Assembly: GCA_947503285.1 (NCBI GenBank)
Contig: CANNDD010000002.1
Coordinates: 1-64,000 of the forward strand
Origin: an uncultured Croceitalea sp.
Lineage (GTDB): Bacteria > Bacteroidota > Bacteroidia > Flavobacteriales > Flavobacteriaceae
DNA length: 64,000 nt
Reading direction: 5' to 3'
A model generated the notes under the pieces. The model searched no databases. It worked only from the letters and a program-made list of their open reading frames with translations, and was not told where the DNA came from. Below are positions 53,830 to 61,552 of the stretch, piece after piece; the stretch's first letter is position 1; every line of letters starts with the position of its first letter. Position numbers and translations under genes: made by a program.

Positions 53830-53873
53830 TGCTCCTCCTCTTGGGCTCGAACCAAGGACACTCTGATTAACAG
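53830..53873 (-). repeat. Left attachment repeat: 3' fragment of tRNA-Asn
   Basis: 44 bases identical, except for A/C at 53860, to 61477-61520, covering the anticodon loop, T arm and 3' acceptor of tRNA-Asn. There is no 5' half, so it is a pseudo-tRNA fragment left by integration. Confidence 0.92.
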
Positions 53874-53980
53874 CGTTGGCGAATGGGGTACAAGCAAATT
53901 TTAAAAATCACGTATTTTATTGAATGTCAGTGTTTTAATAATTTTTGTTGTCAAACAAAGTCAATTGAAACCAACTTTTT

Positions 53981-54001
53981 GCGTGCAAATTGCGTGCAAA
54001 T
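53981..54001. repeat. Tandem GCGTGCAAATT repeat, left copy
   Basis: Two direct copies of GCGTGCAAAT(T) just upstream of the integrase start. The same 21-base pair of units occurs at 61411-61431 at the other end of the island, in the same orientation. They resemble arm-type binding sites of a tyrosine recombinase. Confidence 0.7.
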
Positions 54002-54014
54002 TTTTTTATAACTT

Positions 54015-55241
54015 ATGTTCATGAACACGAGTATAAAGTTAAGTTTGGACACCCGTAGAATGACCCAAAATGGATGTTTCCCCATCATTTTGAGGCTGAC
54101 CCATTTTAGAAAAACCACTTCGATAAAAACAGGCCATTATGTGCCAGAGGAATATTGGGATAATCACAGATGCAAAGTAAAAAGAAATTTTCCAGATGTT
54201 GATTCGGTTCACTTGATGAATACCCTTTTATTAAAAAAACAACTCAAGGCACAAGAAGTAATTAATAGACTGGCCGATAATGACCAATTGGACAGACTTA
54301 CCGCAAAAGATATTGCGGATAAAATCGTCAATAGAAAAAGGTTAAACTCGTTCTATGAGTTCGGTCTTCAAAAGGCCGAAGAGCTTATAAGAGAAAAAAG
54401 GATTGGCACCGCCAGAAACTATTCCGGAATTATAGGAAGGCTTAAGATGTTTACCAACAACCGAGATTTAAAATTCAATGAACTCAATCTTGAATTCCTA
54501 AAACGGTTTGAAAGGCACCATTTATCAAAACCAGGCAATACCATGAATGGAATTGCATCATATATGAGAACGATAAAGGCAATTTACAACAAGGGCATCA
54601 GGGAAGGCATGGTGGATGAATCTCTATATCCTTTTAAATACTATACCATCAAAACCAAGCCGACTGAAAAAAGAGCCATTAAGATTGAAAGCATCAAGAA
54701 AATATTGGAAATGAAAACCGAGATAGGTTCCAATTATTTTCACTATCGTAATTATTTTATTCTTTCTTATCTTATGTTGGGTATGTCCTTTATTGATATG
54801 GCTTTTTTGAGAAGAGACAATTTTATCGATGGCCGTGTCAAATTTCAAAGACGAAAAACAGGAAAGCGCTATGATATAATTATAACGAATCAGATTGAAC
54901 CAATCATTGATTATTATCTAGGCAATCCTAACCCCTCTGGTTTTTTATTACCCATAATCAATAGAGACACGCTAGAGTTACAGTACAAAGATGCTCAATG
55001 GGAACTAAGAAGATATAATATTGGGCTGAAAGAAATAGCTAAAAAGTGTGGTATTGAAGAACGTTTGACCTCCTACGTATCCAGACATAGTTTTGCAACA
55101 CATGCTATGTTCAAAAAAGTTCCTTTAGAGGCAATTTCCGCTATGATGGGGCACAATAAATTAAGTACTACACAAATTTATCTTAAGTCCTTACCAAGCA
55201 ACATACTTGATTCCTATCAGTTAGAATTGAACTCCTTATGA
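54015..55241 (+). CDS. Tyrosine recombinase / integrase (IntDOT-like)
   Basis: 408 residues. N-terminal arm-binding domain (KLSLDTRRMTQNGCFPIILRLTHFRKTTSIKTGHYV), SAM-like core-binding domain (about 105-205), and catalytic domain from about 220. The site of the first catalytic Arg is S258 (LGMSFIDMAFLRR), as in IntDOT (S259). R357 lies in YVSRHSFAT, H380 in MMGHNKLSTT and the nucleophile is Y389. It faces inward 140 bases from the left attachment repeat. It should catalyse the tRNA-Asn site-specific integration. No excisionase gene was found. Confidence 0.93.
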   Translation: MFMNTSIKLSLDTRRMTQNGCFPIILRLTHFRKTTSIKTGHYVPEEYWDNHRCKVKRNFPDVDSVHLMNTLLLKKQLKAQEVINRLADNDQLDRLTAKDIADKIVNRKRLNSFYEFGLQKAEELIREKRIGTARNYSGIIGRLKMFTNNRDLKFNELNLEFLKRFERHHLSKPGNTMNGIASYMRTIKAIYNKGIREGMVDESLYPFKYYTIKTKPTEKRAIKIESIKKILEMKTEIGSNYFHYRNYFILSYLMLGMSFIDMAFLRRDNFIDGRVKFQRRKTGKRYDIIITNQIEPIIDYYLGNPNPSGFLLPIINRDTLELQYKDAQWELRRYNIGLKEIAKKCGIEERLTSYVSRHSFATHAMFKKVPLEAISAMMGHNKLSTTQIYLKSLPSNILDSYQLELNSL

Positions 55242-55348: not shown

Positions 55349-56572
55349 TTAACACGAACAACAATCAGTATTTGATTCAGCTTCGTTAAATGAACAATCT
55401 ACACCTTTATCTAAGGCATTTTTTAACTGATGAAAAGCTTGTTGAATTTTGGACAATGGAGAAGCTACATTCATACGCATGAATTGTGTATGCGATTCTT
55501 CAAACCAATCACCTGGTGTTAAAGCCAATTTGGCCTGATTCACAACCAAGTGTTTTAAGGCCGCATCGGATAAATTTAGCTTACTAAATTCTAACCAAAC
55601 TTGGTAGGTGCCTTCTGGTTTGTATAGCGTTACCTCCGGCAATTCATTTGTAACAAAATCTTGAATCCAATTCATTGTTTTTTCAAGATACCTCAGCAAA
55701 TCATCTAACCACTCCTCGCCTTTTGTATATGCTGCTATTGTAGCATTTGCAGAATGTATGCTTCCGTGGTCTAAATATAAAGAACCAATAGTGTTTTTAA
55801 TTTGTTTGTATGTGTTTTGATTTGGAATATATAAATAGCCATTTGAAATGCTTTGCATACCAAATGTTTTGGCAGGCGAACCTATTACAGCAATGTGATT
55901 TTCAATATTATCCAATGAAGCTATACTATTAAATTTAGTCCTTGAATACACAATGTCTGAATGAATTTCATCACTAATAATGGTAACATCATATGTGTTT
56001 GCCAAATCTACTAGCTTTTGTAATTCTTCTTTTGTCCATACTCGCCCAATTGGATTATGAGGATTACAAAGTAAAATGGCTTTAATATTTAAAGTTTTGA
56101 GTTTACGTTCTATATCCTCAAAGTCCATTAAATAGCGTCCATCACTAACTTTTAGTTTATTATGAACCACTTTTCGTCCGGCGGATTCAATAACCTTAAA
56201 AAATTGATGGTATACAGGGGGTTGCACAAGTATTCCATCTCCTTTTTCAGACAGTTCACGAATCAATATACCTATTCCGGTGAGTACGCCAGAAACCTGT
56301 ACAAACGATTTAGGGTTTAATTGTAATTTATGACGTTTTAAATTCCAATCTGAAATGGCCTTAAAAACTTCACCAGTACTAAATTCATAAGCATAGATAT
56401 TTCTTGTTACTAGTTTTTGCAAGGATTCTTGGATGGGTTTTGCTATCTCAAAATCCATATCTGCAATCCATAATGGCATTACGTCGGTAGCTCCGAACAT
56501 GCCTTTTAGATAATTCGGATTACTCTTTGCAAAGTTGTGTTCTACGTTGTGTATTGTATCGAATTGATTCAT
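55349..56572 (-). CDS. PatB/MalY-type C-S lyase (PLP enzyme) with Cys-rich tail
   Basis: About 407 residues from ATG 56572 (MNQFDTIHNVEHNF), the family-typical start; an upstream in-frame ATG at 56608 overlaps the preceding gene by 10 bases. PLP fold-type I with MPLWIADMDFEIAKPIQE, AILLCNPHNPIGRVW, IISDEIHSDIVY and the Schiff-base lysine in GSPAKTFGMQS. Such enzymes cleave cystathionine or cysteine-type C-S bonds to pyruvate, ammonia and a thiol. The C-terminus is unusual: C393, then C404-C405-S-C407 as the final residues, matching the Cys-tail theme of the island. A thiol-supplying role in arsenic handling is inferred. Confidence 0.85.
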   Translation of the reverse strand: MNQFDTIHNVEHNFAKSNPNYLKGMFGATDVMPLWIADMDFEIAKPIQESLQKLVTRNIYAYEFSTGEVFKAISDWNLKRHKLQLNPKSFVQVSGVLTGIGILIRELSEKGDGILVQPPVYHQFFKVIESAGRKVVHNKLKVSDGRYLMDFEDIERKLKTLNIKAILLCNPHNPIGRVWTKEELQKLVDLANTYDVTIISDEIHSDIVYSRTKFNSIASLDNIENHIAVIGSPAKTFGMQSISNGYLYIPNQNTYKQIKNTIGSLYLDHGSIHSANATIAAYTKGEEWLDDLLRYLEKTMNWIQDFVTNELPEVTLYKPEGTYQVWLEFSKLNLSDAALKHLVVNQAKLALTPGDWFEESHTQFMRMNVASPLSKIQQAFHQLKNALDKGVDCSFNEAESNTDCCSC

Positions 56573-56598
56573 ATTAACTTCTTTAATAGGTTCGTTTA

Positions 56599-57504
56599 CT
56601 AGTTCCACTCATTCTTTGCAGCTTTAAAATCTTCTTGAAATTTTTCGGTATGCCACATTAGCATCAACATTTTATGCGCGATTTGTCTAGCCACCTCTTC
56701 ATCACTTGGAAAGTGGACTCCCATAATTTCTCTCGACAAGCCAATTTCATATGCCAACGCAATATATTCAGCTCTCTTTTCTGGTATCAATTCACTTAGG
56801 GTATATGCTTGAATATAAGCCCATAAGGTATGTCCACTGGCAAAAGATGGTGTTGGTATTTCTTGTAAGGGTTTAATATTCTTGTCTAGATGATACGGTC
56901 TAGCACGCAATAGGTTAAACTTTACTGCAAACTCGATTAATCGCATATCTTGCATTACTCCTTTTAACAAATCTGCTGTTTTTGGATAATTTTTTGCATT
57001 GTATTTTTCGCCGGAAACTTCCCTGACCATAAAGAACAAATCTTTTAAATTATCTTCATATCTATCGTCAGTTTTGGTATAATTTTTATGGGGCCAATAG
57101 CCAACTTTTGCAAGTTTCATTACACGCTCTGTTTGTTTATCGGTTCTCTTGTTCTGTAAATCGAGTAAAAAGTCTAGTTCAGCTCTTGTTTGTTCTGAGC
57201 TATTGGCCGGAAAGTTTAAGGAGTTTACAATAAAATCTACTTGAGTAGAACTTAAATAATATGGTTTGTTTGAAGCATAAACCAATATGAAATTCAAATA
57301 ATTATCGGTAGGATATACTATAGTATCCATAGGAGCGAATTCTACACGCTTTTCTGCATTTAGTCGTTTCAACTCTTTATAGTGATTGCTTATAGGTTCG
57401 ATGTCATGAATTGTTGTAAAAACAGACTGCTGGCTGCATACACTGACAGAGATACTAAATAGCACTAAACACAAGAAACCTCTCTTATAAATATTCATAG
57501 TCAA
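56599..57504 (-). CDS. PAP2-family acid phosphatase
   Basis: 301 residues with a signal peptide (FLCLVLFSISVSVCSQ). The class A acid phosphatase signature is complete: KFNLLRARPYHL (KxxxxxxRP), PSFASGHT and SREIMGVHFPSDEEVAR (SRxxxxxHxxxD). The enzyme should be periplasmic and hydrolyse phosphomonoesters using the His nucleophile. It lies between the C-S lyase and permease genes on the same strand. Its link to arsenic is not obvious; removal of phosphate from an arsenical or recycling of phosphate under arsenate competition are guesses. Confidence 0.88.
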   Translation of the reverse strand: MTMNIYKRGFLCLVLFSISVSVCSQQSVFTTIHDIEPISNHYKELKRLNAEKRVEFAPMDTIVYPTDNYLNFILVYASNKPYYLSSTQVDFIVNSLNFPANSSEQTRAELDFLLDLQNKRTDKQTERVMKLAKVGYWPHKNYTKTDDRYEDNLKDLFFMVREVSGEKYNAKNYPKTADLLKGVMQDMRLIEFAVKFNLLRARPYHLDKNIKPLQEIPTPSFASGHTLWAYIQAYTLSELIPEKRAEYIALAYEIGLSREIMGVHFPSDEEVARQIAHKMLMLMWHTEKFQEDFKAAKNEWN

Positions 57505-57528: not shown

Positions 57529-58245
57529 TTAAAGCCAGCCAAATAACAACCCGAAACCCAGCACAACCAGTGCAACACCAGATACTTGACTTATGATTTG
57601 TTTGTTTTTTAATAGCTTATCTGAAAATTTATTGAATCCAATACCAAAACCAATTAATAAAGCTCCAAGAGGTATGCTATATCCAATGGCAAACACAAAT
57701 AATGTAAACCAACCTAAAAGCATACTACCTTGTAGATATGATGTTCCCAAAATGATCGGAAATATTGGGCTACACCCCACAGAGCAAGCGGTTGCAAAAC
57801 CACCTAGAAGCAAACCAAATAAAAAGCTCTTATTCGCTAATTTTGAAATTTTGGAAGATATATTAGAGCCAACATTAATTTTGAATGGCAACATATCTAA
57901 ACTCATCAGTCCTAAATAGACCATTAATATACCGGCCACTAAAATCCAATACTGTCCAACTATTTGACCAATGGATGCGCTGATTAAACCCGTTAAAGCC
58001 CCTACAATTGATAGTGAGATTATGTTTCCCAATAAAAACGAAAGTCCCGTTTTTAGATGAGACGCTTTGCTCTTAGAATTAGATTCAGAACCGGCATAAC
58101 TGGTAATCGCGGCCAGAACCCCAACATTACAAGCAGAACCAACTGCCGCTACAAGTCCTAAGATAAAAATTGAAATAAAAAATATAGGCGAATTTAATTG
58201 GCTTTCAACGAGATCGTTGGTCCACTGCTGTATACTCTCTAACAT
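57529..58245 (-). CDS. ArsG/CcdA-like membrane permease
   Basis: 238 residues with about six membrane helices (FFISIFILGLVAAVGSAC, LLGNIISLSIVGALTGLI, ILVAGILMVYLGLMSL and others). C39 (GSACNVG), C154 and C158 (TACSVGCSP) are the conserved cysteines of CcdA/DsbD-like proteins. Short CcdA-like permeases of this size occur in ars operons as ArsG, reported to export trivalent aromatic arsenicals. Here it follows a thioredoxin-like protein by 11 bases, as ArsG follows ArsF in such operons. Alternatively it passes electrons to a periplasmic thioredoxin. Either role needs the Cys pair. Confidence 0.75.
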   Translation of the reverse strand: MLESIQQWTNDLVESQLNSPIFFISIFILGLVAAVGSACNVGVLAAITSYAGSESNSKSKASHLKTGLSFLLGNIISLSIVGALTGLISASIGQIVGQYWILVAGILMVYLGLMSLDMLPFKINVGSNISSKISKLANKSFLFGLLLGGFATACSVGCSPIFPIILGTSYLQGSMLLGWFTLFVFAIGYSIPLGALLIGFGIGFNKFSDKLLKNKQIISQVSGVALVVLGFGLLFGWL

Positions 58246-58256
58246 GTTTGTTGGTT

Positions 58257-58922
58257 TTATTTAGAGCTAGAGCCGTCGCAAGTGGCTTTTTGTTCTGGGG
58301 AACATGTAGTTTTTGCCTTAGGGTCACAAGAAGCATTACTTTTTCCTGCACAAGTGGCTTTTTCTGCTGGGGAACATGAAGCCTTTGAGCTTAATGCTGC
58401 ATCATAGGCTCTAATTAATTTTGCCGAATTGACCTCTGCCCCGGCTATTGTTGAAACGCTTTTTCCCAGAATAGCGACATGAGGTGTTTCTTCTATTTTT
58501 AATTTTGACACTGTATCTTTATGGTGTTCATCACTTTCTTCTAAAGCAAGGAAATAGGCAGATTCACCTGTTTCATTTAACTCTTCAACAATACTTTCTA
58601 CTTTCGAAGTGATTTTCTGGTTCTTATTAGGATCATTACCTTTTAAAACTATATAAGCCACCTTTTTATCTGTTTTTATCCATTCAAAATCAGCAATAGA
58701 TAGTGTTGTGGAATCTGTGGTGCATGAAACTTCTGCCACAGCTGAGCCTTTAAAAGCAGTAGTTAAAGCAAGAACCAATGCCAGGCTAAGTATGCCTAGT
58801 CCAAATTTTTTCTTCATACCGGAATTCTTATTTATTGAACTATTGTTAGGTGTACAACAATCGGAATTAGTGTTAGATTCATTGTTTGGTGTACAGCAAT
58901 TTGTGTTGTTTGAATTATCCAT
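58257..58922 (-). CDS. Membrane-anchored thioredoxin-like protein with two Cys-rich tails
   Basis: About 221 residues from ATG 58922; an in-frame ATG at 58949 would lie at or before the predicted transcription start and is therefore unlikely. N-terminal cytoplasmic tail with two CCTPN repeats (C9-C10, C22-C23), a membrane helix (KKKFGLGILSLALVLALTT), then a thioredoxin-like domain that lacks CxxC (FEWIKTDKKVAYIVLKG, ETPHVAILGK). The C-terminal tail has five cysteines (CSP, TCA, SCD, TCS, TCD). Own SigZ-type promoter. Vicinal thiols on both membrane faces suggest As(III) capture and hand-over to the permease; this is inferred, not shown. Confidence 0.72.
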   Translation of the reverse strand: MDNSNNTNCCTPNNESNTNSDCCTPNNSSINKNSGMKKKFGLGILSLALVLALTTAFKGSAVAEVSCTTDSTTLSIADFEWIKTDKKVAYIVLKGNDPNKNQKITSKVESIVEELNETGESAYFLALEESDEHHKDTVSKLKIEETPHVAILGKSVSTIAGAEVNSAKLIRAYDAALSSKASCSPAEKATCAGKSNASCDPKAKTTCSPEQKATCDGSSSK

Positions 58923-58952: not shown

Positions 58953-58980
58953 ATAGACGCGCCTTTAAAAAAAAGACGCA
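58953..58980 (-). promoter_or_regulatory. SigZ-type promoter of the thioredoxin-like gene
   Basis: On the minus strand TGCGTCTTTT (58980-58971) as -35 and GCGTCTAT (58960-58953) as -10. The two GCGTC cores are 19 bases apart, exactly as at the arsM and sigZ promoters. Predicted start near 58946, which places ATG 58922 as first codon. Confidence 0.8.
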
Positions 58981-58986
58981 AAAAAA

Positions 58987-59012
58987 ATTGCCTCACTTAA
59001 TTGTGAAGCAAT
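58987..59012 (-). terminator. arsM terminator
   Basis: ATTGCCTCAC at 58987-58996 and GTGAAGCAAT at 59003-59012 pair with one G-U. On the minus strand an eight-T run follows and directly abuts the -35 box of the next promoter. It separates arsM from the thioredoxin-like operon. Confidence 0.82.
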
Positions 59013-59037
59013 TTTTGCTATTAATCATCTGCTAAAA

Positions 59038-59829
59038 TTATTTTTCAGCGTAAACTCCAAGACTTACAACGTCGTTATCACTCGCCTTGAACTTTTCTAA
59101 TTCCTCTGGGCAGCATACATAATTTAGTAACACGTCATCAGGCATTTTTACAATACGTTCTTTAGTAATGGTAATATTTTTGAAACCAGCATCTTTTATA
59201 GCTTCAATATAATCTTCTTGTTGTAATGCTCCAGAAATACAGCCAGCATACATTTCGGCAGCTTCCATAATGCCATTTGGTAAATCACCTCTTAGTACTA
59301 TATCTGACATACTAAAATGCCCTCCAGGTTTTAGTACACGATATACTTCTTCGTAGGCTTTCTTTTTATCAGGAACCAAGTTCAATACGCAGTTGCTTAC
59401 AGATACATCAATGGAATTGTCTTTTAAGGGAAGAGCTTCGATTTCGCCCAAAACAAAATCTACGTTAGTATAGCCTAGTTTTTGTTTGTTTTCATTGGCT
59501 TTTTCAATCATGGCTTCGGTCATATCTACACCGATTACGTGACCAGACTCTCCTACGATTCTTCTTGCCACGAAAACGTCATTTCCGGCACCCGAACCTA
59601 AATCTAGCACCGTATCTCCTTCTTTGATTTTAGCATGTTCTGTAGGGATTCCACAGCCTAAGGCATAATCTGCATCAGCTTCGTAGCCATCTACCTTGGA
59701 ATAACTTTCAGCAAGAGTCCAATCTTGTGCTGGAGAACCGCATGATGTTGGTCCACAACCGCAGCCTGCACCCGAATTTGCGACTCTAGTATAAGCTTCT
59801 TTTACGTGTTCTTTAATTTCTTGTGACAT
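59038..59829 (-). CDS. arsM: Arsenite S-adenosylmethionine methyltransferase
   Basis: 263 residues. SAM-binding motif VLDLGSGAGNDVFVARRIVG with D102 in VIGVDMT. The three arsenic-binding cysteines of ArsM are C59 (YALGCGIP), C147 (VSNCVLN) and C197 (YAGCISG). An additional N-terminal Cys cluster (C23, C25, C30) and C239-C240 are typical of bacterial ArsM. It methylates As(III) to volatile or less retained methylarsenicals using AdoMet and thiols. Cytoplasmic. Own SigZ-type promoter 40 bases upstream and own terminator. Confidence 0.95.
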   Translation of the reverse strand: MSQEIKEHVKEAYTRVANSGAGCGCGPTSCGSPAQDWTLAESYSKVDGYEADADYALGCGIPTEHAKIKEGDTVLDLGSGAGNDVFVARRIVGESGHVIGVDMTEAMIEKANENKQKLGYTNVDFVLGEIEALPLKDNSIDVSVSNCVLNLVPDKKKAYEEVYRVLKPGGHFSMSDIVLRGDLPNGIMEAAEMYAGCISGALQQEDYIEAIKDAGFKNITITKERIVKMPDDVLLNYVCCPEELEKFKASDNDVVSLGVYAEK

Positions 59830-59868
59830 AATGTATCTATTTAAAGTGCTATAATTTAATTTTCACTC

Positions 59869-59897
59869 TATAGACGTCAGCTTAAAAAAAAGACGCA
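59869..59897 (-). promoter_or_regulatory. SigZ-type promoter of arsM
   Basis: TGCGTCT (59897-59891) and ACGTCTATA (59877-59869) on the minus strand, with the GCGTC/ACGTC cores 19 bases apart. Predicted transcript leader of about 33 bases. Confidence 0.8.
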
Positions 59898-59905
59898 AAA
59901 AATAG

Positions 59906-60451
59906 CTAATCACAAGATTGGTTGCAATTTTTTGTTTTGTAATCGATAACATCACCATATACATCTGTAGATATTGCACAGCATTGGTCGTAGGAAGATT
60001 TTAATAATTCTCTGCCTCGTTGTACCCTGGATTTTGCACCTGAATACGAAATATTCAATCGTTTCGCTATTTCTTTCTGTGGTACATTTTCAATATCAGC
60101 CATAATAACGGCCTGTTTGTACTTTTCAGGAAGTGAATCAATAAACGGACTAATACAATGCGTTAGTTCAGAGGTAAGCGAATCGTTAGAGCTTTCTTCG
60201 GAGACAATATTATCAGTGGGTGTATCAAATTTCAATTTTCTAAAATGGGAAATTATTTCGTTACGTGTAATCTGATAAATCCATGACACTAATTTTTCTT
60301 TATTCTTTAGCGTATCAAACTTGGTAAACGCTTTTAAAAAAACATCTTGAACAATGTCTTTTGTAAGTTCAGGATCCTTAACCTTACCAATAACAAAATT
60401 GGTTAATCGGTCATTCATATCATTCCAAACTTCACCTATATCTGTACTCAT
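59906..60451 (-). CDS. sigZ: ECF sigma factor, SigZ-like, with C-terminal Cys cluster
   Basis: 181 residues. Sigma region 2 (LTKDIVQDVFLKAFTKFDTLKNKEKLVSWIYQITRNEIISHFRK) and region 4 (SLPEKYKQAVIMADIENVPQKEIAKRLNISYSGAKSRVQRGRELL) are complete. The C-terminal extension has C157-C158 and C176-x3-C180 around a DVYGDVIDY segment, as in SigZ-like sigma factors. No anti-sigma gene is adjacent, so the Cys extension may sense metalloid or redox state directly. A promoter of the same type precedes its own gene, which implies autoregulation. Confidence 0.88.
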   Translation of the reverse strand: MSTDIGEVWNDMNDRLTNFVIGKVKDPELTKDIVQDVFLKAFTKFDTLKNKEKLVSWIYQITRNEIISHFRKLKFDTPTDNIVSEESSNDSLTSELTHCISPFIDSLPEKYKQAVIMADIENVPQKEIAKRLNISYSGAKSRVQRGRELLKSSYDQCCAISTDVYGDVIDYKTKNCNQSCD

Positions 60452-60479
60452 AATTGTAAAAATAAATCTTTGATTTATT

Positions 60480-60508
60480 TATAGACGCAGGGATGGGAAA
60501 AAGACGCA
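60480..60508 (-). promoter_or_regulatory. SigZ-type promoter of sigZ (autoregulatory)
   Basis: TGCGTCTT (60508-60501) and GCGTCTATA (60488-60480) on the minus strand, cores 19 bases apart. The start codon is about 22 bases after the predicted transcription start. Confidence 0.8.
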
Positions 60509-61107: not shown

Positions 61108-61410
61108 AAAATAATATTTGCAACTCTTTGTTGAATTTTGAACAGTGTTTTTTACTAAATAATTTTTGAACTCAATTGGTTCTTATTGGTACTCCTAAAA
61201 TATCAGTAAAGAGAAAAGTAATAAAACAAAAATTTATAGGAGCGCCCTATTTCAATTTTATTTTACGCTTATCTTCCCGAATACTATAAAATTGAAAAAG
61301 GATCCATGCGCTAAGTATTCAGGTAAGAAATGGGACCAATAGCAAATAATTCTGGGAAAATTTAGACTGAAATGTTAAAGTTTGACTCTAAATAAAAAAA
61401 ATCTCAATCT

Positions 61411-61431
61411 GCGTGCAAATTGCGTGCAAAT
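61411..61431. repeat. Tandem GCGTGCAAATT repeat, right copy
   Basis: Exact match to 53981-54001, same orientation, 46 bases inside the right attachment repeat. Candidate arm-type integrase sites. Confidence 0.7.
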
Positions 61432-61476: not shown

Positions 61477-61520
61477 TGCTCCTCCTCTTGGGCTCGAACC
61501 AAGGACCCTCTGATTAACAG
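61477..61520 (-). repeat. Right attachment repeat within tRNA-Asn
   Basis: Right copy of the 44-base repeat; here it completes a full-length tRNA-Asn. One mismatch to the left copy at 61507. Confidence 0.92.
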
Positions 61521-61552
61521 TCAGATGCTCTAACCAACTGAGCTAAGGAGGA
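61479..61552 (-). tRNA. tRNA-Asn (anticodon GTT)
   Basis: 74 bases on the minus strand. Acceptor TCCTCCT pairs with AGGAGGA, anticodon loop CTGTTAA gives GTT, T arm CTTGG-TTCGAGC-CCAAG. CCA is not encoded. Its 3' part has been supplied by the integrated island, leaving the tRNA intact. Confidence 0.97.

Follow-up and report, generated by a model that had tools for sequence, protein, structure and literature searches.

How are arsenic genes switched on in a genomic island where no ArsR-type repressor is recognised? Bacterial arsenic resistance is described mostly through such repressors. The question is raised by a stretch of 64,000 nt (the window; positions 1 to 64,000 of contig CANNDD010000002.1, assembly GCA_947503285.1) from an uncultured Croceitalea sp. 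of the Flavobacteriaceae, in which the gene of an extracytoplasmic function (ECF) sigma factor, SigZ, adjoins arsM, the gene of an arsenite methyltransferase. A sequence-only reading of this DNA had proposed that three promoters of identical spacing, before sigZ, arsM and a ‘thioredoxin-like’ gene, define a SigZ-controlled arsenic regulon. In the computational analysis presented here, the three sites are very probably the promoters of an autoregulated, cysteine-sensing ECF switch, which would respond to As(III) or thiophilic stress. The same signals stand beside SigZ in distant bacteria, near genes for arsenic or metal-binding functions, which suggests a widespread and little-studied form of arsenic resistance control.

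Promoter-like sites of the window

The three motif copies lie before the three genes that had been named, all on the minus strand (Table 1). Each is 27 nt long and follows the pattern TGCGTC-N15-CGTCTA, with the two CGTC cores exactly 19 nt apart in every case, as had been claimed. Shuffled versions of the window (100 shuffles) contain a mean of 0.02 sites, and none contains three. Throughout the 4,341,352-base genome, TGCGTC-N14-16-CGTCTA matches only the three sites of the window and the backwards-pattern control gives 0 matches; the variant pattern GCGTCT-N14-15-CGTCT likewise recovers these three alone. The search proposed by the sequence-only reading thus yields no further copies in 4.34 Mb.

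If the transcript start is assumed to lie 7-8 nt past the -10 element, the predicted leaders to the ATG are approximately 24 nt for sigZ, 35 nt for arsM and 24 nt for the thioredoxin-like gene (ATG at 58922), in agreement with the expected 20-35 bases. An alternative longer reading frame of the last gene, from 58949, would start beside the -10. The arsM and thioredoxin-like promoters sit within a repeat of 44 nt with 84% identity between its copies, and for this reason may derive from one duplication and not be fully independent. Fixed-spacing -35 and -10 elements, present also before the sigma factor gene, are the mark of an ECF-type promoter, and by sequence alone the three sites have this form.

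Association of the motif with SigZ

For comparison, 110 SigZ loci (108 distinct proteins, a few genomes being represented twice) were gathered by protein similarity, blind to the DNA. They comprise 30 loci from a family-wide search, including that of the window, the first 51 of 80 named loci and 29 from a phylum-wide search, 0.78 Mb in all. A strict pattern, TGC[AG]TC[CT]TTT-N8-14-CGTC, was applied, with a TC-to-TC core spacing of 16-22 allowed. It recovers 78 distinct sites, three of them those of the window, compared with a mean of 0.45 and a largest count of 2 in 20 dinucleotide shuffles of the same loci. Of the 78 sites, 21 have a core spacing of 19 and 57 one of 20; no other value occurs. 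The conserved context is asymmetric, with a run of T after the first core and TATA after the second. At least one strict site is present in 66 of the 110 loci, so the motif does recur in homologous neighbourhoods, and a similar site precedes sigZ itself in L005, L010, L011, L063, L064, L065, L075 and others. A chance origin of the motif was rejected on the combined basis of the window shuffles, the genome-wide exclusivity and the shuffled SigZ loci.

A phylum-wide search finds arsM in 179 of 395 genomes. The 30 arsM loci with the highest scores were compared, in equal-sized stretches, with 30 SigZ loci of the same search set. A strict site occurs in 16/30 SigZ loci (15/29 without that of the window) and in 1/30 arsM loci, and this lone arsM locus adjoins sigZ; when relaxed sites are counted as well, 18 of the 30 SigZ loci contain one. 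This difference indicates that the motif tracks SigZ, not arsM. Thirty-six further ECF loci had been chosen as controls and were divided into 27 distant and 9 low-identity loci only after sites had appeared. The 27 distant loci, seven of which come from the genome of the window, contain 0 sites. The proposal that the adjacent SigZ would read all three sites, its own promoter included, is largely supported by this linkage across phyla.

Genes downstream of the motif

Of the 51 named SigZ loci, 13 have arsM adjoining sigZ, and these come from several phyla. By title they belong to Aquimarina, a proteobacterial metagenome-assembled genome (MAG), Lentisphaerae, Ignavibacteriales, three gammaproteobacterial MAGs (one of Thiotrichaceae), Syntrophomonadaceae, Pedosphaera, Rhodospirillales, Ktedonobacter, Acidithiobacillus and Planctomycetota. 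Eleven of these 13 loci, all distinct from the window, have the strict motif immediately upstream of arsM. The remaining two (L079 and L084) have one-letter variants before arsM, which were accepted post hoc. In L113 the site falls within the longest reading frame called, just before an internal ATG.

A second arrangement is found in 16 SigZ loci, by title or handle mostly of Flavobacteriaceae, in which the site is followed by a conserved cysteine-rich peptide of 33-37 aa and then, where read, by sigZ. Further cysteine-rich peptides of 26-55 aa stand behind the motif in L011, L065, L066, L075, L217, L218, L220 and L225. Two of the peptides were tested and matched no NCBIfam model; the label ‘metallothionein-like’ is given to them for their cysteine-rich composition alone. 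In L101 (5770-6001) the promoter, a peptide of approximately 33 aa and sigZ follow one another, with a terminator-like hairpin before sigZ in this one case scanned. A similar arrangement occurs in L097, L103, L105, L107, L021, L024 and L026. Such a layout could yield much peptide and little sigma factor.

ArsI/CadI follows the motif in L019 and L216, above the cut-off in both of the two proteins tested, and in L216 it is followed by ACR3 (365.9 bits, cut-off 282.8). PAP2 homologues (L063, L224 and L232) and PatB-like genes (L017, by eye; L064, L083 and L111) are also found behind SigZ-type motifs. As a separate observation, PatB-family C-S lyases occur near SigZ in the window and in L017, L063, L064, L083, L096 and L111, mostly behind the motif. 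It is possible that H2S or thiol conjugates act in metal(loid) defence through PatB.

Given the cysteine-rich peptides and ArsI/CadI behind the motif, ‘thiophilic metal(loid)’ is perhaps a better description of the proposed regulon than ‘arsenic’.

Relatives of SigZ are also found within plasmid ars operons. In three of the four enterobacterial regions opened, a SigZ-like ECF gene lies in the order arsR-arsH-ECF-arsD. The plasmid protein is 29% identical to SigZ, and SigZ is its best model with 142 bits, below the cut-off. At E<=1e-20, matches to it are present in 1,363 of 72,556 plasmid records, of which four had their neighbourhoods read. Between the ECF gene and arsD, all three regions carry a variant site, GCATCTTTTTCCC-N8-9-CGTTTACC, with a spacing of 20. 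The fourth region (L241, Citrobacter) contains TGCATCCTTTTCTGTCAAACAGCGTCTTCC between the ECF gene and a permease-thioredoxin pair. The plasmid ECFs keep cysteines aligned to C99 and C158 of the window SigZ, plus a CC pair further on.

The SigZ protein

SigZ of the window contains only the sigma2 and sigma4 regions, has the ECF fold and enters its family narrowly (TIGR02959, 169.1 bits against a cut-off of 168.65). The structure model is that of an ECF in which region 4 is followed by a beta-hairpin. Its mean predicted local distance difference test score (pLDDT) is 85.7 and its predicted template modelling score (pTM) is 0.48, which leaves the domain arrangement uncertain. The best PDB matches of the model are ECF sigma factors.

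The protein has cysteines at C99, between regions 2 and 4, and at C157, C158, C176 and C180 in the C-terminal. Among the 108 SigZ proteins, C157 is conserved in 102, C158 in 98 and the linker C99 in 80, and the two tail cysteine columns are occupied in 87 and 86. Linker cysteine, CC pair and a tail cysteine are present together in 64/108. When 67 of the SigZ proteins are aligned, 14 residues are nearly invariant, C157 and C158 among them. The tail of the window protein reads CC-x17-C-x3-C, and the commonest form in the family is CC-x19-C-x2-C (33/108). A strict motif lies within 1.5 kb in 4 of the 14 SigZ with fewer than three cysteines after residue 135, against 59 of the 94 others. One branch of SigZ (L006, L007, L008, L067 and L069) has a single tail cysteine, a PhzF-like neighbour where read, and no strict motif. 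L148, with the same layout, has the strict motif directly before the PhzF-like gene.

Proposed mechanism and alternative explanations

In the proposed mechanism, SigZ would bring RNA polymerase to TGCGTC(T/C)TTTT-N~10-CGTCTATA, the two parts of which would serve as the -35 and -10. It would thereby turn on sigZ, arsM and the thioredoxin-like/DsbD-type/PAP2/PatB operon, forming a self-amplifying detoxification switch on the island. No anti-sigma factor or ArsR is recognised in the island, and SigZ itself is the likely sensor. As(III), or a different thiophilic metal(loid), would be bound by its near-invariant CC pair after region 4, by the tail cysteines and, in most members, by the linker cysteine, and binding may release or stabilise active SigZ, as in the CorE-type sigma factors. 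There is an even chance that the wider form of this proposal is correct, in which SigZ would be a one-protein arsenite switch, binding As(III) by linker and tail cysteines, for arsenic, metallothionein-like and sulfur-lyase genes across many phyla, as well as an overlooked second layer beside ArsR in enterobacterial plasmid ars operons.

Several observations weigh against an arsenic-responsive SigZ as the reader of these sites. No strict site was found in 44/110 SigZ loci within the stretch examined, and 35 of the 94 SigZ with at least three tail cysteines have none within 1.5 kb. Conversely, three sites occur in the nine low-identity ECF loci meant as controls (L114, L132 and L139; by title the nine are seven proteobacterial named groups or MAGs, one Kistimonas and one Bacteroidota). 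These sites precede two permeases and a thioredoxin above the MTH895/ArsE cut-off; the L114 permease scores under the cut-off of the efflux models SaoE and SO_0444. In G531 (L154) the motif lies approximately 300 nt before arsM, and no SigZ is listed for the genome at E<=1e-33. On the three plasmids read from Priestia, Vibrio and Rhodococcus, none of the genes beside sigZ is annotated as an arsenic gene; the Priestia sigZ adjoins an aldo/keto reductase gene, which a relaxed site faces. Ten of the 13 loci that pair sigZ with arsM lie on contigs of MAGs. The protein of the window barely passes TIGR02959 and fails PRK09637 (187.1 against 212), and it has Q178 in the first tail column, the better conserved of the two, with its C176 placed two columns before. 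The linker cysteine is absent in 28/108 SigZ. Finally, in a scan of 395 Bacteroidota genomes with TGCRTCYTTTN9-13CGTCTWT, the backwards control gave 22 raw matches (hand count) against 20 true sites outside the window, so that the raw counts are near chance and placement alone is informative. By placement, 11 of these 20 sites have sigZ or arsM at a distance of about 1 kb or less (L143, L146, L148, L152, L154-L157 and L159-L161), 7 are inside unrelated reading frames and 2 are elsewhere. As a side observation, the backwards control pattern occurs 19 times in a single genome, G127, far above the other genomes, where it perhaps represents an unrelated repeat family.

Two alternatives retain SigZ as the reader of the sites. 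One, which has a real though clearly less than even chance, is that SigZ is a broad thiol-stress sigma factor, which responds to thiol-reactive compounds or metals in general (Cd, Cu, Zn, Hg or electrophiles) and for which arsenic is only one inducer. The cysteine-rich peptides and ArsI/CadI behind the motif agree with it, as do SigZ neighbours that are not arsenic genes, among them flavin oxidoreductase, glutathione S-transferase (GST), aldo/keto reductase and PhzF-like genes. The frequency of arsM beside sigZ in several phyla and on the island of the window argues for a narrower signal, as do ACR3 and the plasmid arsR-arsH-ECF-arsD operons. The other, which is rather unlikely, places control outside the island, through an unlinked anti-sigma factor or sigZ transcription alone, and gives the cysteines a structural role, for example in binding zinc. 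The 10/108 SigZ without a cysteine at position 158 are consistent with this, together with the proteins that lack the linker cysteine. It is opposed by the near invariance of C157 and C158, by the seven island proteins scanned, in which no anti-sigma family was found, and by the precedent of CorE, CorE2 and OrbS, which sense metals through C-terminal cysteines according to passages of one report (PMC9023288).

The remaining alternatives dispense with SigZ or with function, and both are highly improbable. Tandem operators of a DNA-binding repressor or activator would explain why both half-sites share GCGTC in the manner of a direct repeat. The asymmetric context, the position shortly before start codons, the spacing of 19-20 expected of ECF -35 and -10 elements, and an association with SigZ genes, not with arsM, do not suit operators, and repressor operators were rejected as the principal explanation on these grounds. 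Another ECF of the genome might instead read the sites, or they might be functionless copies carried with the island. With the SigZ model, 38 further matches appear in the genome at E<=1e-3, not one of them above the cut-off, and the 84% repeat shared by the arsM and thioredoxin-like promoters would fit passive copies. The rest of the genome lacks the motif, which accompanies SigZ in many phyla, and the seven other ECF loci compared from this genome have 0 sites, all of which favours SigZ as the reader of functional promoters.

Genomic setting

The features of the island are listed in Table 1. An integrase, a tRNA-Asn gene and a 98% direct repeat of 44 nt mark an integrative island of approximately 7.65 kb. 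An exact 22-nt repeat, TGCGTGCAAATTGCGTGCAAAT, lies at 53980-54001 and 61410-61431, near both ends of the island, and perhaps provides recombinase arm sites.

Table 1. Positions of the promoter-like sites, genes and borders of the island, and of related plasmid regions
Feature	Position	Strand	Remarks
Putative SigZ-type promoter of sigZ	60482..60508	-	TGCGTCTTTTTCCCATCCCTGCGTCTA; presumed autoregulation site
Putative SigZ-type promoter of arsM	59871..59897	-	TGCGTCTTTTTTTTAAGCTGACGTCTA
Putative SigZ-type promoter of thioredoxin-like operon	58954..58980	-	TGCGTCTTTTTTTTAAAGGCGCGTCTA
sigZ, ECF sigma factor, 181 aa	59906..60451	-	TIGR02959; Sigma70_r2 and r4_2; ECF fold
arsM, arsenite methyltransferase, 263 aa	59038..59829	-	NF008823, 325.7 bits (cut-off 263)
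Cysteine-rich protein with hydrophobic stretch, ‘thioredoxin-like’	58257..58922	-	Cysteine-rich ends and stretch by eye; reading frame open from 58949
DsbD_TM-type membrane protein, same presumed operon	57529..58245	-	PF02683, 33.8 bits
PAP2-family protein, same presumed operon	56599..57504	-	PF01569
PatB-family C-S lyase, cysteine-rich C-terminus, same presumed operon	55349..56608	-	TIGR04350, 366.5 bits (cut-off 340)
Tyrosine integrase of the island	54015..55241	+	PF00589, PF13102, PF17293
att-like direct repeat, 44 nt	53830..53873	.	98% to 61477-61520
att-like direct repeat overlapping tRNA-Asn	61477..61520	.	98% to 53830-53873
tRNA-Asn, presumed island insertion site	61478..61552	-	overlapped by the att-like repeat at 61477-61520
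arsR-arsH-ECF-arsD regions	L239:1828-5732, L240:2956-4984, L242:2982-6759		arsA annotated in two

ArsM is assigned by family score and by its cysteines, and matches solved arsenite methyltransferases. The cysteines of GCG, SNCV and C-x2-GAL align with those of 5evj, which are presumably the catalytic ones. The thioredoxin-like, DsbD_TM, PAP2 and PatB genes are closely spaced and are therefore presumed to form one operon behind the third site. The name ‘thioredoxin-like’ is that of the earlier reader; the protein has no match in Pfam, NCBIfam or the PDB. The DsbD_TM protein is weakly ArsG-like (NF040495, 38.3 bits, far under the cut-off of 200).

The statement that the island has no ArsR gene stands for the seven proteins scanned, among which neither ArsR (HTH_5) nor anti-sigma families were recognised, small reading frames being outside the scan. 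Within the same seven, no arsR lies in or adjoining the operon in the manner of an ArsR-regulated ars operon. The statement does not extend to the genome, which has three HTH_5 (PF01022) matches on other contigs. ACR3 has no match anywhere in the genome.

Comparison with known systems

The best-matching sigma factor family is SigZ (TIGR02959/PRK09637, including SigZ of Bacillus subtilis), which has the same domain layout; its Bacillota members (L078, L086 and L095) share the CC tail with the protein of the window. No regulon, signal or promoter was found for this family in the open-licence literature searched, and a motif and target genes are proposed for it here. Neither a link between SigZ and arsenic control nor an arsenic-responsive ECF was found in the same searches, in which two papers contain both words, by title on a Bacillus genome and a cyanotoxin review; an earlier prediction of the motif or the neighbourhood in the CorE2 or ECF classification work is possible.

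The closest functional parallels are CorE and CorE2 of Myxococcus xanthus (former ECF44, now ECF238), which are activated by Cu(II) and by Cd/Zn, respectively, and control metal resistance genes. As excerpts of two reports describe, these proteins demonstrate that an ECF can sense metals by means of cysteines at its C-terminus (PMC8999054, PMC9023288), and in part of a third the search for an anti-sigma factor of CorE is given as negative (PMC3107203). SigZ likewise has a C-terminal cysteine-rich extension, conserved in its relatives, and a linker cysteine. A CXC motif in the sigma2-sigma4 linker is named as a feature of the CorE-like group in the excerpt of PMC8999054; the SigZ of the window has the single C99 and no CXC, and is for this reason CorE-like by anatomy but not filed as CorE-type. 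Its tail is also less dense than the CorE cysteine clusters, as these appear in the excerpt of PMC9023288, and arsenic genes stand behind its motif. The same excerpt presents the C-terminal cysteines of OrbS from Burkholderia cenocepacia as a built-in ‘anti-sigma factor’ (PMC9023288). OrbS is an on-board sensor inhibited by iron, and differs from SigZ in the metal sensed, the direction of the response and the targets.

The ArsR-controlled ars operons employ the same classes of effector, namely arsM and, in relatives of SigZ, ACR3, ArsI/CadI, arsD and arsA. With no ArsR recognised in the island, positive control by a sigma factor is proposed in place of derepression. If this is correct, arsenic genes would have a second mode of control, a positive one. 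It would be exerted by a sigma factor that spans phyla and has a promoter code of its own, placed before arsM, ArsI/CadI-ACR3 and metallothionein-like genes, and the poorly characterised SigZ family would gain a regulon and a signal that can be tested. The enterobacterial plasmid operons contain both ArsR and a SigZ-like ECF, and the SigZ reading offers a role for the ECF genes inside them.

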